A DNA stretch of 46,466 nucleotides from an uncultured Clostridia bacterium (GTDB lineage Bacteria; Cyanobacteriota; Vampirovibrionia; Gastranaerophilales; Gastranaerophilaceae). Positions 1 to 39,425 of the stretch are shown one piece after another; within the stretch, counting starts at the first letter, position 1; each line of letters starts with the position of its first letter. The notes under the pieces are model-generated. The model saw only the letters and a list, made by a program, of their open reading frames with translations, was not told the DNA's origin and made no database searches. The position numbers and the translations under genes were made by a program. The stretch spans positions 1 to 46,466 of the forward strand of contig CAMEWS010000012.1 in assembly GCA_945946765.1 (NCBI GenBank). The letters run 5' to 3'.

Positions 1-100
1 ACTTGGCGTCATTCGCACTCCGTTACACTTCTACAAGCGAAGCCGCCTCAAACAATCTTTACTGTGATTAAATAGTCGGAGTCTGTCGAGATATTAAAAT
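1..100. repeat. Interspersed repeat, partial copy 1 (module A inverted, plus right arm of module C)
   Basis: Bases 1-50 are the reverse complement of the 54-bp module A found at 16339-16392 and 39216-39269, in opposite orientation to those copies. Bases 73-83 then match the right end of the full element (AGTCGGAGTC), in the same orientation as the other copies. The central stem-loop part (module B) is missing. The window starts exactly at the module boundary, so the repeat may continue upstream. It lies 100-200 bp upstream of rpsF. Confidence 0.75.
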
Positions 101-4537: not shown

Positions 4538-5233
4538 ATGACAGTAAATTTTAATAGCAATGTTGGTTATGTGCCATCCAAAAGTTATTCAAACGTAAAT
4601 TTTGCTCAACGCAATGAAAATATGGAAGCTCCCAAAAAGAGTAATACAAAAAAATATGTAGCAGCCGGTGTTGGCTTGGCTGCCATTGCCGCAGCTATAG
4701 TATTTAGAAAACCAATAGGACAAGCTGCAAAAAATCTTTTAGGTAAAATTAAATTATTTGATTTTTCATCAATGGCTAAAAAAGTTGGCATTGGTGCTAG
4801 AAACATTGCAAACAAAGCAAAAGTAAAAGCAGGTGAAATCTTTGCATCTGCAAAAACTGTAGCAAAAGATTTAGTAAGTAACATTAAAGGAAAAATAAAA
4901 ATGCCTGATTTTTCATCAATGGCTAAAAAAGTTGGCATTGGTGCTAGAAACATTGCAAACAAAGCAAAAGTAAAAGCAGGTGAATTTTATAATACGGCAA
5001 AAACAACAGTAAAAGATGCACTAGGTAAAATTACAGCAAAATTTACAAGTCCAATGAGTAGCATTAGTGCAAGTACTATTACCGACAAGTTCAAAAATAT
5101 TTGGCAAGGTGCCAAAAACTATGCAGTTAAAGGCTGGGAATTTGCTAAACAATACGGTCAAAAAGCAATCGAATGGGTTAAAAATATTTTTCATAAACTT
5201 TTCCACAAACCTGTAACTCCAACTGCTCCTTAA
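4538..5233 (+). CDS. Lineage-specific membrane-anchored protein with internal duplication
   Basis: 231 residues, no recognised family. A short N-terminal region with NF motifs (MTVNFNSN; SNVNFAQRN) is followed by a hydrophobic segment at about residues 39-57 (KYVAAGVGLAAIAAAIVF). The rest is Lys/Ala-rich and looks like amphipathic helices. Two 26-residue repeats (about 75-100 and 124-149) are identical and encoded by identical 78-bp DNA. The C-terminus has aromatic amphipathic helices (WQGAKNYAVKGWEFAKQYG) and ends HKPVTPTAP. RBS AAAAGGAG precedes ATG. It is monocistronic with its own terminator. An envelope or membrane-surface role is inference from sequence style only. Confidence 0.85.
   Translation: MTVNFNSNVGYVPSKSYSNVNFAQRNENMEAPKKSNTKKYVAAGVGLAAIAAAIVFRKPIGQAAKNLLGKIKLFDFSSMAKKVGIGARNIANKAKVKAGEIFASAKTVAKDLVSNIKGKIKMPDFSSMAKKVGIGARNIANKAKVKAGEFYNTAKTTVKDALGKITAKFTSPMSSISASTITDKFKNIWQGAKNYAVKGWEFAKQYGQKAIEWVKNIFHKLFHKPVTPTAP
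4760..4837 (+). repeat. 78-bp direct repeat, copy 1
   Basis: Identical over 78 bp to 4907-4984 and in frame inside the 231-aa protein. The period is 147 bp, or 49 codons. Confidence 0.97.
4907..4984 (+). repeat. 78-bp direct repeat, copy 2
   Basis: Identical to 4760-4837 including all synonymous positions, which points to a recent duplication or gene conversion. Confidence 0.97.
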
Positions 5234-16338: not shown

Positions 16339-16510
16339 TGTCTGAGGCGGCTTCGCTTGTAGAAGTGTAACGGAGTGCGAATGACGCCAAGTCTAGCATT
16401 TTGCGGAAGTGACCCCATGCACTTGTTGCCTGTGCCGAACTTGTTAATAAGAATGAACTTGTTTTTTGCACAGGTTCAACAAGTAGTCGGAGTCAGTTGA
16501 CAATATGAAA
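16339..16510 (+). repeat. Interspersed structured element, full copy 2 (modules A-B-C)
   Basis: Module A (16339-16392) is a quasi-palindrome: GGCG/CGCC and GCGAA/TTCGC arms. Module B/C folds as nested stems: GACCCC (16411-16416) with GGAGTC (16489-16494, one mismatch), CTTGTTG (16422-16428) with CAACAAG (16477-16483), and CCTGTGC (16429-16435) with GCACAGG (16468-16474). The end is GTCAGTTGACAATATGAAA. It is nearly identical in modules A and C to 39216-39425. It lies between thyX and a terminator at 16513. Confidence 0.85.
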
Positions 16511-16512
16511 TA

Positions 16513-22518: not shown

Positions 22519-23178
22519 TTAATCCAATTTCCCCGTTAACAAAAGTTTCTCAACATGTTCAATCATTTTATTGTGAATATCTTCTCTTGGTAAAGTTCCG
22601 TCTATACTTACAAAATTGTATTCATCCTTCATTTTGTTGTATTCTTCAAGACATTTTGTTTGATAAATCTTAAAGCTTTCATAAAAATCCGTACTCAATC
22701 CGATATCCCTGCCGGATTCCCAGTAATCCAACCCTGTTGTACCGATAACTCTTTTTAATAAAACATCAATAGGCATATCAAGATAAAATACTAAATCAGG
22801 TTTTGGCGCATAATCGTATAATTTTTTTACCCAATCCATATCAAGCCCTCTTACAACATCTCGGGCAAATGCTGTATAGGTATATCTATCCAAAAGAACA
22901 ACGAATCCTGATTCCAATGCAGGAATAATTGTATTTTCAAGCCTGTCTGCAAAATCAGCCGCATATAAAAGGCTGAAAGTTGTAGCATTTAAAAGGTTTC
23001 TGTCTTTGGCATCATCAATTACATTAGCAATAAGACGAGATGTCTTCCATTCAGACACCATACAGCCGTAGCTTTTATCTTCTATCCAACGGCGAAGTTT
23101 TTCAATTTGTGTGGATTTTCCCGAGCCGTCAGTACCTTCTATTACTATTAATAGTCCTTTGTGTTCTTTATCCGCCAT
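22519..23178 (-). CDS. Thymidylate kinase-like protein, paralogue 2
   Basis: 219 residues. The P-loop is EGTDGSGKST (about residues 14-23). 'DRYTYTAFARDVVRG' stands where canonical dTMP kinases have DRYxxSxxAYQG, and 'PDLVFYLDMPIDVLLKRV' matches the core. It is a paralogue of the preceding gene, with the same DRY-YTAFARDV signature. The start overlaps the upstream stop by 1 nt (TAATG), so the two are co-translated. Whether the substrate is dTMP is not settled by the sequence. Confidence 0.85.
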   Translation of the reverse strand: MADKEHKGLLIVIEGTDGSGKSTQIEKLRRWIEDKSYGCMVSEWKTSRLIANVIDDAKDRNLLNATTFSLLYAADFADRLENTIIPALESGFVVLLDRYTYTAFARDVVRGLDMDWVKKLYDYAPKPDLVFYLDMPIDVLLKRVIGTTGLDYWESGRDIGLSTDFYESFKIYQTKCLEEYNKMKDEYNFVSIDGTLPREDIHNKMIEHVEKLLLTGKLD

Positions 23179-23849
23179 TATAAATTAATTCCTTTTTCGC
23201 TTAAAAGTTGTGTTACATATTCTCTCAGTTTGACTTGTTTTGAATGAATTGAATCGTTTGCATCAATTTTAACCAACCCGAACTCATCAACCATATTTGA
23301 ATATTCTTCATTTACTCTGTTTTGAAAAATCACATAACTTTTGTAAGGATTATTGCTTAGTTTTAAATCCATGCCTGCTTCATAAAAAGAAGGTGTCCTG
23401 TTTGCACATATCCTTTCTAATGAAGCTTCTGCAGATATGTCGTAATAAAGAGTGAGATCGGGTTTTATCGCAAAACCGTACATGTTCCTTACCCAGTCTT
23501 TGTCAACCCCTCTGGCAACATCACGGGCAAATGCCGTATATACATATCTGTCTGCCAAAACTATAAACCCCGCTTTCATTGCGGGAATAATTATTTGCTC
23601 TAATCTGTCAGCAAAATCTACGGCATGCAAAAGACTAAAAGTTCTGGGACTTAAAAGATTTTTCTTTTTTGCCTTTTTTGTTGTTTGTGAAATTAAATCG
23701 GAAGAATTCCATTCCGTAAAAATCACATCAAGATTTTTCGATTTTAGCCAATCTCTTAAAATCGCAAGTTGTGTTGATTTTCCCGAACCGTCTATTCCTT
23801 CAACACAGATAAGAGTTCCCGATAAATTGTGCGGATTTGATAATCTCAT
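23178..23849 (-). CDS. Thymidylate kinase-like protein, paralogue 1
   Basis: 223 residues with P-loop EGIDGSGKST (about 17-26). The motif 'DRYVYTAFARDVARG' is followed by 'WVRNMYGFAIKPDLTLYYDI'. The pair is a tandem duplication, so both may act together as a heterodimer, or one may have diverged. dTMP kinase would fit thyX nearby; no other tmk is present in this window. The N-terminus is about seven residues longer than paralogue 2. No strong promoter is seen in the 170-bp divergent spacer to 24020. Confidence 0.85.
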   Translation of the reverse strand: MRLSNPHNLSGTLICVEGIDGSGKSTQLAILRDWLKSKNLDVIFTEWNSSDLISQTTKKAKKKNLLSPRTFSLLHAVDFADRLEQIIIPAMKAGFIVLADRYVYTAFARDVARGVDKDWVRNMYGFAIKPDLTLYYDISAEASLERICANRTPSFYEAGMDLKLSNNPYKSYVIFQNRVNEEYSNMVDEFGLVKIDANDSIHSKQVKLREYVTQLLSEKGINL

Positions 23850-37711: not shown

Positions 37712-37814
37712 GGGGAGACCCCATGTGCTTGTTGCAGGTGCCCCTTAATATTTATTAAATATTTGGCTTGTTATATGCACCTGTTCAATAATTATACGGA
37801 GTCAGGTGACATAT
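37712..37814 (+). repeat. Interspersed structured element, copy 3 (modules B-C, in the pgi leader)
   Basis: The same nested stems as at 16411: GACCCC (37717-37722) with GGAGTC (37798-37803), TTGTTG with CAATAA (37786-37791, one G-U), and CAGGTGC (37735-37741) with GCACCTG (37777-37783). Compared with copies 2 and 4, two inner-stem pairs changed on both sides and keep pairing. Module A is absent. The end GTCAGGTGACATATGAAA lies 18 bp before the pgi start and overlaps its leader. Confidence 0.8.
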
Positions 37815-37832
37815 GAAAGAAAGGAGAGAAAA

Positions 37833-39134
37833 ATGTTAACAAAAAACTCTGATATTACAACAACTTTTAGCGGTGTAGATTTTTCAAAATACGCATCAAA
37901 AGTTTCAGAATTTGTAAATGAATTTGCATCAAGAGCAAACAAACAAGGTCAATTCTTAAATTGGGTAAATCTTCCGTCCGAACAATTAAAAAGAGTTGAT
38001 GAAATTTACGAATTAGCAGCAAAACTTAAAGCTCAAACAGGCGCTCAAAAACTCAGCGTAATGGGCATTGGTGGTTCTAAGCACACCGTAGAACACATGC
38101 TCTCAATAAATGGTTTAAATGTTAAAGGAGATGTCGTTGAATTTTATTCTGATGTTGATTCTGCAAGTTTAGAAAGATTTTTATACAGATTAGGTAACGA
38201 TGTTACAAAATCAAACTTTATGATTGCTTCAAAATCAGGCTCAACATTTGAAACAAAAGACGGATTTTTAAGAGTTTTGGCAATGTTAATTGACTCATAT
38301 AAAGCCCAAGGTCAAACTCAAGAAGAAGCTGAAAAATCAGCTAACAAGCATTTTATTGCCGTTACAGACGGTAATGCTGAAAAAAGTGAATTAAGACGCA
38401 CGTCAAACACAAACGGCTGGTTAGGAGATTTGTTCATTCACGATGACGTAGGCGGAAGATTCTCGGCTTTTGATGATCACGCTTTGTTTACACTTGCATT
38501 TGCAGGCATGAAAAAAGAAGACATGAAAGCAATGCTGGAATCAGCACAAAATATGTCAGAACTTTCATTATCAACTGATTTGGATGTTAATGATGCTTTA
38601 AAAGAAGGTATTTTCTGGGCTGATGCAAAATTAAACGGAACAGAAGCATCTGTACATCAATACATGGGCGCTATTTTTGAAAATACTGTTTATTGGCACG
38701 CTCAAATGCAAAACGAATCTGTTAAAGATACTTTAAAACAGGTTGCAAAAGTTCCTGACGCTATGCATCACAGTGCAGAAGCACACTTCAATCCTGCAAA
38801 CAAACTTGTGTTTGCTTTAACTGTTCCGTCAGATAACGGCGTATGCAAAGAAAACGCAGAAGCATATATTGGCGCTTTGTCAAAATCTTATGAAGTTACG
38901 GGTGCTACTTTTGTTGAAAATATTGCGACCAAAGGAATGGGCTTAACACCATCGGCAGCAGGTGCAATGACTCAATTGAGAGCATTTGCTACTGTGTATC
39001 AGGAAATTGTTGAAAAAATCATGACAAATACTTCCTTCCCTGAAGTTTTAGACAGCGTACTTCAACCGCACGTAGAATTCTACAAAAAGAATCTTAAAGG
39101 CGGAGTTGTAGTCCCTGGTCGAATTTCAAAATAA
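37833..39134 (+). CDS. pgi: Glucose-6-phosphate isomerase
   Basis: 433 residues, the short bacterial type. Pgi interconverts glucose 6-phosphate and fructose 6-phosphate. 'LSVMGIGGSKHTVEHM' and 'IASKSGSTFETKDGFLRVL' are the phosphosugar-binding SIS motifs. 'GRFSAFDDHALFTLAFAG' is also conserved. The ATG has AAGGAGAG 4-5 nt upstream; an earlier ATG at 37806 lies inside the structured element and is less likely. The structured element in the leader is the notable point. A terminator follows. Confidence 0.95.
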   Translation: MLTKNSDITTTFSGVDFSKYASKVSEFVNEFASRANKQGQFLNWVNLPSEQLKRVDEIYELAAKLKAQTGAQKLSVMGIGGSKHTVEHMLSINGLNVKGDVVEFYSDVDSASLERFLYRLGNDVTKSNFMIASKSGSTFETKDGFLRVLAMLIDSYKAQGQTQEEAEKSANKHFIAVTDGNAEKSELRRTSNTNGWLGDLFIHDDVGGRFSAFDDHALFTLAFAGMKKEDMKAMLESAQNMSELSLSTDLDVNDALKEGIFWADAKLNGTEASVHQYMGAIFENTVYWHAQMQNESVKDTLKQVAKVPDAMHHSAEAHFNPANKLVFALTVPSDNGVCKENAEAYIGALSKSYEVTGATFVENIATKGMGLTPSAAGAMTQLRAFATVYQEIVEKIMTNTSFPEVLDSVLQPHVEFYKKNLKGGVVVPGRISK

Positions 39135-39215: not shown

Positions 39216-39425
39216 TGTCTGAGGCGGCTTCGCTTGTAGAAGTGTAACGAAGTGCGAATGACGCCAAGTCTAGCATTTTGCACTCTGCCGAAAAAATGAT
39301 TAAGTATCATTTTTGAGAGGGGTGACCCCATGCTCTTGTTGCCTGTGCCGAACTTGTTGATAAGAATGAACTTGTTTTTTTGCACAGGTTCAACAAGTAG
39401 TCGGAGTCAGTTGACAATATGAAAT
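39216..39425 (+). repeat. Interspersed structured element, full copy 4 (modules A-B-C)
   Basis: Module A (39216-39269) differs from copy 2 by one base in the shared part (AACGAAG vs AACGGAG). After a longer A-B spacer containing an extra ATGATTAAGTATCAT palindrome (39296-39310), the core stems are GACCCC (39324-39329)/GGAGTC (39403-39408), CTTGTTG (39335-39341)/CAACAAG (39391-39397) and CCTGTGC (39342-39348)/GCACAGG (39382-39388). It ends GTTGACAATATGAAAT like copy 2. It lies between the pgi hairpin and the next operon. Confidence 0.85.

Follow-up and report, generated by a model that had tools for sequence, protein, structure and literature searches.

The movement of small bacterial repeats, such as BOX, ERIC and the CGTC-type REPs, is a long-standing open question. 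The repeat described here shares traits with several of the known systems. Like the REP/REPIN sequences with their RAYT, it is palindromic, present in high copy number, mostly extragenic and variable between species, and a single-stranded movement is proposed for both (PMC3733652, PMC8266576). With BOX of Streptococcus pneumoniae, whose terminal repeats have been described as IS-like, it shares a composite organization in which end modules enclose optional internal ones, a high degree of predicted folding and insertions of repeats within repeats (PMC3049150). It is small, non-autonomous and folded, as are ERIC, RUP, Correia and other bacterial MITEs, most of which, among those tabulated, have terminal inverted repeats and target-site duplications; as in the CIRs of Caulobacter and Brucella, which are noted for a GANTC methylation motif, there is no conventional terminal inverted repeat and there is more than one hairpin arm together with a linker (PMC2229807). 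Hairpins near the ends, insertion with no duplication and a flank similar to the right end are shared with IS200/IS605 elements (PMC8266576).

The window (the whole stretch of DNA that was analysed, 46,466 nucleotides of contig CAMEWS010000012.1) had been described in a first-pass annotation as carrying three copies of a structured element, one of them in the leader of pgi, that could be a mobile palindrome, a cis-regulatory RNA or an sRNA. The observation largely holds and was confirmed in part, and its interpretation is partly supported by the results presented here. In our estimate there is about an even chance that the element is a small, non-coding, non-autonomous mobile DNA element and that the sequence in the pgi spacer is a copy of it, moved as a folded single strand. 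The literature searched, which covered few of the subscription journals, held no account of such a repeat in Gastranaerophilales.

Results

A covariance model (R1) was built from 17 cores of other genomes, with the window sequences left out. It recovers three copies where that annotation had placed them, all on the plus strand, at 16409-16510, 37715-37818 and 39322-39424, each with an E value below 1e-15 (5e-28, 2.5e-25 and, for the pgi copy, 2.4e-16). The sole further plus-strand match in the window scores 10.3 bits (E 1.8), and on the opposite strand two of the three copies match weakly (26 and 18 bits). The core described earlier is real, but in two of the three copies it makes up only the 3' portion of a longer interspersed repeat, bounded by TGTCTGAG and ATATGAAAW; these two reach upstream into a second conserved module, and the pgi copy consists of the core alone. 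The full unit in its basic form measures about 172-178 nt (about 175 nt) and is longer with optional hairpin modules; with the last W excluded, the copy at 16339 is 172 nt and the copy at 39216 is 209 nt. This last base was counted as part of the element because it follows the subfamily, being A in 29 of 29 copies read in the G016 stretches and T in 14 of 15 G000 copies; a G016 copy outside that set (L083), belonging to another subtype, ends in T. The features of the window that concern the element are as follows.

1..54, minus strand: 5' module belonging to one more copy, which is truncated where the contig ends
16339..16511, plus strand: complete basic-form copy (TGTCTGAG...ATATGAAAT), core match 117 bits
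37487..37690, plus strand: 67-codon ORF upstream of pgi, with a similar ORF at the same place in the 4 relatives read (by eye)
37715..37818, plus strand: core-only, diverged copy in the spacer between the 67-codon ORF and pgi (model R1, 72 bits, E 2.4e-16)
37833..39134, plus strand: pgi (glucose-6-phosphate isomerase), the downstream neighbour, matched by the NCBIfam models for this enzyme (best E 4e-20, each below its cut-off)
39216..39425, plus strand: complete long-form copy with one extra hairpin module, core match 107 bits
39282..39321, plus strand: hairpin ACTCTGCCGA...GAGAGGG, an optional module that the long-form copy contains and the basic form (16339-16511) lacks, found at recurring scaffold positions in other copies

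Pfam at 0.01 gave no match for either the pgi ORF or the 67-codon ORF. Elsewhere in the window, a tandem duplication of 147 nt (4741-5034, 84% identical) lies inside a 231-codon ORF, and two adjacent, similar kinase-like ORFs (219 aa and 223 aa), which share a DGSGKSTQ motif, lie on the minus strand at 22519-23849. This pair, which we take to be thymidylate-kinase-like, is apparently also a tandem duplication.

The inner stem does read CCTGTGC/GCACAGG in two window copies and CAGGTGC/GCACCTG in the pgi copy, and the change is a truly compensated one. However, because the CAGGTGCC/GCACCTG stem of the pgi copy also occurs in a G011 copy (L124), the double change may have been inherited from a subfamily rather than compensated in place. 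The G-U that the outer stem GACCCC/GGAGTC was said to tolerate had to be corrected, since on the plus strand it is a C.A mismatch in all three window copies; a G.T pair appears there solely in the minus-strand reading, and 14 of 47 distinct cores have a C-G pair (GGGGTC). The true plus-strand G.U sits in the CTTGTTG stem, where the pgi copy also has one mismatch (CAATAAT).

Selection for the fold across the family, which the first-pass annotation had claimed from three copies, is supported by covariation among the aligned sequences. In the 17 cores 94.7% of the cells are paired, with 5 doubly changed pairs and 11 further pair types, against 31-41% of cells, 0-1 doubly changed pairs and 2-8 further pair types in slid registers. 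The covariation score of the 17 cores is 0.169, compared with 0.067 for shuffled and at most 0.051 for slid alignments, and the inner pair 22-68 occurs among them as CG, GC, UA or AU. A larger set of 47 distinct cores (50 cores minus 3 with indels in the helix arms) has 921 of 1034 cells in Watson-Crick pairs, against 20-28% in slid registers. In this set the G.T and A.C cells are balanced on the plus strand (35 vs 38), a test that gave no preference for either strand, and therefore the cores do not say which strand folds. Coupling between the arms could in principle also be caused by protein dimers that bind inverted repeats. All three window copies fold better than shuffled sequences on either strand (z -2.1 to -4.8), the pgi copy being the weakest folder (z -2.8 on the plus and -2.1 on the minus strand). 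In the RNAalifold prediction for 17 full-length representatives, the 5' end pairs, whichever strand is folded, with bases immediately upstream of the 3' end; this predicted pairing, in a region where bases hardly vary, would join the ends of the element.

Copy numbers differ strongly between related Gastranaerophilales genomes, and copies are nearly identical within at least one genome. Searches of the window genome at E up to 10 gave 45 matches to the core and 42 to the 5' part, some of them split or weak and many at contig ends, which makes the number of separate copies uncertain. A 174-nt query was positive at E 0.001 in 18 of 23 same-genus genomes, with up to 197 first-look candidates in one genome and no match in five. 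A 104-nt query, for which no more than four candidates were scored in each genome, matched 14 of the 191 genomes of the family, spanning 6 of 41 genera; in three of these genera (one genome each) the match covered only 20-35 nt. A scan of GTDB species genomes for GGRGTCAGTTGACWATATGAAA gave at least 107 stretches; among the 80 loci listed, 75 are titled Candidatus Gastranaerophilales and 5 come from one MAG titled 'uncultured bacterium'. The viral contigs, phages and plasmids searched held no match to the element. Identity is 80-94% among seven representatives of seven genomes, and 26 of the 28 copies compared in G016, taken from the top of a score-ranked list, are identical.

Insertion is precise, into A+T-rich sites mostly outside genes, and occurs without target duplication. 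A copy on contig C8 of G000, just downstream of a conserved TATAAT, occupies a site that is empty in 9 of 9 aligned orthologues (3 of 13 junctions were used, of which the third was informative and the matches of the other two did not span the junction). A G017 copy has a 95%-identical empty counterpart in G019; here 10 of 14 junctions were used, two in shortened form, together with one half (the left) of another; the first gave this clean pair, and the sole further junction inspected (L090) was not clear. A long inverted repeat on contig C41 of G000 has the element in only one of its arms, and its second arm reads exactly as the two flanks would if closed up. Both this pair and the G017/G019 pair agree with an element TGTCTGAG...GAAAW that is inserted without duplication, and at 139 strictly defined sites the agreement between flanks, for k of 1-8, was about that of shuffled pairs. 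The largest excess, at k 4 (6 sites vs 3.1 expected), was reached by 36 of 500 shuffles, and a looser-ended set of 135 sites had the same outcome. Among the 139 sites the target flank has A at -4 in 84%, with A/T around. Many copies, sharp ends and empty orthologous sites thus bear out the suggestion of a mobile palindromic element. One copy on contig C2 (L010/L049, 17658-17867), which starts with TTTCTGAG in place of TGTCTGAG, has a direct repeat of about 20 bp (TTGATCGTTGGGGTGGAGAA) on its two sides; this was rejected as a target duplication, since no other inspected site has one.

The counts of placement, modules, end distances and flanks drew on every locus collected. Copies lie inside ORFs of at least 80 aa in 16 of 113 cases, whereas of 5940 positions drawn at random from these loci 4285 do. 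Among the intergenic copies, 90 are bordered by ORFs on either side; by orientation of the left and right ORF relative to the element, these are distributed as ++ 32, +- 31, -- 17 and -+ 10, the divergent gaps (10/90) being the rarest setting in a count made without control for gap-type frequency. Counted likewise without gap-type control, the left (5'-side) gene is co-oriented in 66 of 93 cases and the right (3'-side) gene in 44 of 94. If the element acted as a leader regulator, a preference for co-orientation would be expected on the right-hand side, and none was seen.

For the pgi copy, the comparison covered 4 of 14 genomes with matches, those whose loci had been retrieved. In all four (G002, G001, G014 and G006) the pgi spacer is short and without the element, and R1 found nothing at E 1 in these pgi loci; on 16 loci of relatives, the four pgi loci included, its one match (E 0.33) was at a non-pgi locus. 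Because the orthologous sites are empty, with 4 of 4 spacers lacking it, the element does not look like a conserved pgi regulator. As RNA, the nested fold of the pgi copy has -24.0 against a minimum of -32.0 kcal/mol, a cost of about 8 kcal/mol, and the pair probability of the inner stem is about 2e-5. We read this copy as an old insertion that lacks its 5' part and sits immediately before the ribosome-binding site of pgi; it is probably a bystander, though from this position a local effect on pgi is possible.

The element is modular. Alignment of 102 distinct elements to two scaffolds gave 109 inserted blocks of at least 18 nt, a figure that overstates the events since the aligner splits some. 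The blocks recur near scaffold positions 21-24, 34-42, 68-74, 85-94 and 140-150; 34 carry a CTCTGCCGA-like hairpin, 14 a TATGGCTC module and 5 a AAATCCAAG module, the same modules are common to different genomes, and the longest unit counted is 593 nt. With search patterns that differed in strictness, 9 of 99 3' ends lack a 5' end and 3 5' ends lack a 3' end, the isolated 3' ends being counted in 80 of the at least 107 GGRGTCAGTTGACWATATGAAA loci. The 3' end GGRGTCAGTTGAC is found by itself and also in a head-to-head arrangement. No autonomous copy with an ORF between both ends was found among 252 distinct 3' ends in the collected loci. For 4 of these 252 the nearest 5' end is more than 700 nt away, and three of the four stretches hold a second 3' end; their longest ORFs (small heat-shock-like, ribosomal protein S2, membrane protein and radical SAM) are presumably ordinary host genes.

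Further palindromic and repeat structures were also observed. At about 1205-1267 of L319, head-to-head 3' ends (TTTCATATCGACAACTGACTC...GAGTCAGTTGACTATATGAAA) form a REPIN-like doublet of the right end only. The palindromic module CTCTGCCGA...GAGAGG recurs alone and nested inside the element (window 39282-39321; L342, L297, L073), and at the beginning of contig C8 two copies of it were seen by eye next to a tRNA-like sequence. Another mobile-looking family, with long inverted repeats (arms GGCAAATAAATATGTTTTTAAGTAGGCTT, interior 'CTCGATAACTCGGGCTAT'), is present in L011/L045 (contig C41 of the window genome), and similar stretches were seen by eye in L015, L040 and L282.

Candidate mobilising enzymes were searched for in the 23 same-genus genomes with PF01797 (Y1/RAYT), PF07282 (TnpB) and RVT_1, and with a RAYT protein query; the genomes are drafts of 20-180 contigs, MAGs where the record was visible, from which a multi-copy autonomous element or gene is easily lost. 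PF01797 is present in 8 of 23 genomes, those read being RAYT-like, and the G011 Y1 protein is a RAYT (NF047646, 143 bits) with the element on both flanks. Of the 11 draft genomes with more than 10 element matches, 7 gave no PF01797 match (G005, G006, G007, G010, G015, G016 and G022). The protein query gave nothing at E 1 in G006, G007, G010, G015, G019 and G022 and reached only E 0.001 in G016; all of these seven but G019 have more than 10 element matches, and the query agrees with the PF01797 absences save for a fragment in G005 and a remnant in G016. PF07282 was found in one genome (G007) and RVT_1 in three (G017, G019 and G022), so that each was missing from 10 of the 11 genomes with more than 10 element matches; RVT_1 was not found in G000, G010, G011, G013, G015 and G016. 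In the draft genomes of G006, G010, G015 and G016, the search gave no Y1, TnpB or RVT_1, the short RAYT remnant in G016 apart.

The RAYT protein query pointed to 26 places, of which 16 were read. At 8 of these 16 loci a different palindrome lies directly upstream, GTAG-tagged in 6 and GTCG-tagged in 2, and the remaining eight comprise seven partial genes and one with its start 83 nt away from the edge of a contig. RAYT sequence is directly adjacent to the element at 2 of the 16 loci, in one case as a 24-aa remnant, and at two more loci the element lies about 700-800 nt away. RAYT-like genes with GTAG- or GTCG-tagged upstream palindromes (L217, L219-L224 and L232, in G013, G011, G004, G021, G014, G000 and G002) apparently represent several separate REP/RAYT systems in Gastranaerophilales.

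Discussion

In the mechanism that we propose, a trans-acting enzyme would recognise a folded single strand of the element, probably while the DNA is single-stranded during replication, and a cut-and-join chemistry without target duplication would move it, as the HUH single-strand transposases do for IS200/IS605 and REP sequences. A single-strand transposition step is favoured by elimination and by analogy: there is no duplication, the ends do not match by eye, the putative substrate is folded, and the left flank AAWW resembles the right end AAAW of the element. In IS200/IS605-type elements the two cleavage sites are often alike. Taken in full, as a modular family of interchangeable hairpins around a covarying core that would spread as folded single-stranded DNA (or RNA) by an enzyme outside RAYT/Y1, TnpB, reverse transcriptase and the duplication-making DDE transposases, this proposal is tentative, and we hold it less likely than the more general account given above. 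Movement of the folded single strand by another recombinase, such as a serine recombinase or a tyrosine recombinase akin to integron integrases, is an unlikely alternative, consistent with precise, duplication-free insertion, with ends that do not match by eye and with a fold that has no strand bias. That the genus's own RAYT genes move the element as a REP/REPIN-type repeat appears improbable. RAYT-like genes do occur in several element-bearing genomes, the window genome included, the 3' end stands alone and head to head, and the element-flanked G011 RAYT made RAYT an attractive mover at first. However, 8 of the 16 RAYT loci read carry directly upstream a tagged palindrome of their own, as is usual for a cognate REP, and five genomes with more than 10 element matches gave no RAYT protein match at E 1, with only E 0.001 in a sixth (G016); on these grounds RAYT was dropped as the mover.

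A retroposed RNA copied by a reverse transcriptase, in the manner of a bacterial SINE, would account for a structured sequence with an A-rich 3' end and for lone 3' ends that outnumber lone 5' ends, if the unequal strictness of the patterns is kept in mind, but RVT_1 in 3 of 23 genomes and the lack of target duplication leave this explanation with a small probability. A miniature IS605/TnpB element with an omega-RNA-like scaffold seems very improbable, because PF07282 occurs in 1 of 23 genomes, even though the absence of duplication, the structured right end and the flank preference would all agree with it. We give equally little credence to a conserved cis-regulatory RNA, be it a riboswitch or a leader, of pgi and other genes, a possibility that the first-pass annotation had raised for the pgi leader and that a conserved fold and a copy just before the ribosome-binding site might suggest. 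Relatives' pgi spacers are without the element, downstream genes are co-oriented in fewer than half of the cases, the pgi copy as RNA disfavours the fold, and there is no Rfam match at gathering score in the window; five weak sub-gathering matches fall in four element loci. This reading is largely refuted, although a copy-specific, recently co-opted effect is possible.

Compensatory changes in a leader can thus be the heritage of a mobile element, and gene regulation need not follow from them. The family, with its near-identical copies, empty sites and strong covariation, has signs of recent bursts, and a comparison of complete genomes between the five match-free and the element-rich genomes of the same genus could expose the enzyme directly.

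Set against the described systems, the element departs from each in definite ways. REP palindromes are 20-40 bp with a GTAG/CGTC tetranucleotide tag at their foot (PMC3733652, PMC8266576), whereas the element is a multi-stem unit of about 175 nt with fixed ends and without a conserved GTAG: before CGGAGTC, GTAG stands in some lineages and GTTG or GTTA in G009, G011, G005 and G111 cores. It is not consistently linked to RAYT, and some element-rich genomes have no RAYT match. From ERIC, RUP, Correia and similar MITEs it differs in having neither a duplication, two empty sites agreeing with the flank comparison on this point, nor ends that match by eye (TGTCTGAG compared with the right-end complement WTTTCATAT). 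In contrast to IS200/IS605 elements, most element-rich genomes gave no TnpA (Y1) or TnpB partner, the Y1 matches read being RAYT-like, and the AAWW flank is loose, no more than an A at -4 with A/T around, rather than a fixed tetranucleotide. Unlike BOX, as far as BOX can be compared by description, the element has another sequence, belongs to another phylum, carries several modules at 5 or more positions and has no terminal inverted repeat by eye (PMC3049150), while its build of end modules plus optional internal modules is of the BOX type; the likeness to CIR is likewise one of description (PMC2229807). In its behaviour the element is like REP/REPIN and BOX-type repeats, yet it belongs neither with REP/RAYT nor with the duplication-making MITEs. 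We file it as a new family, a variant of the small, non-autonomous, folded repeats.
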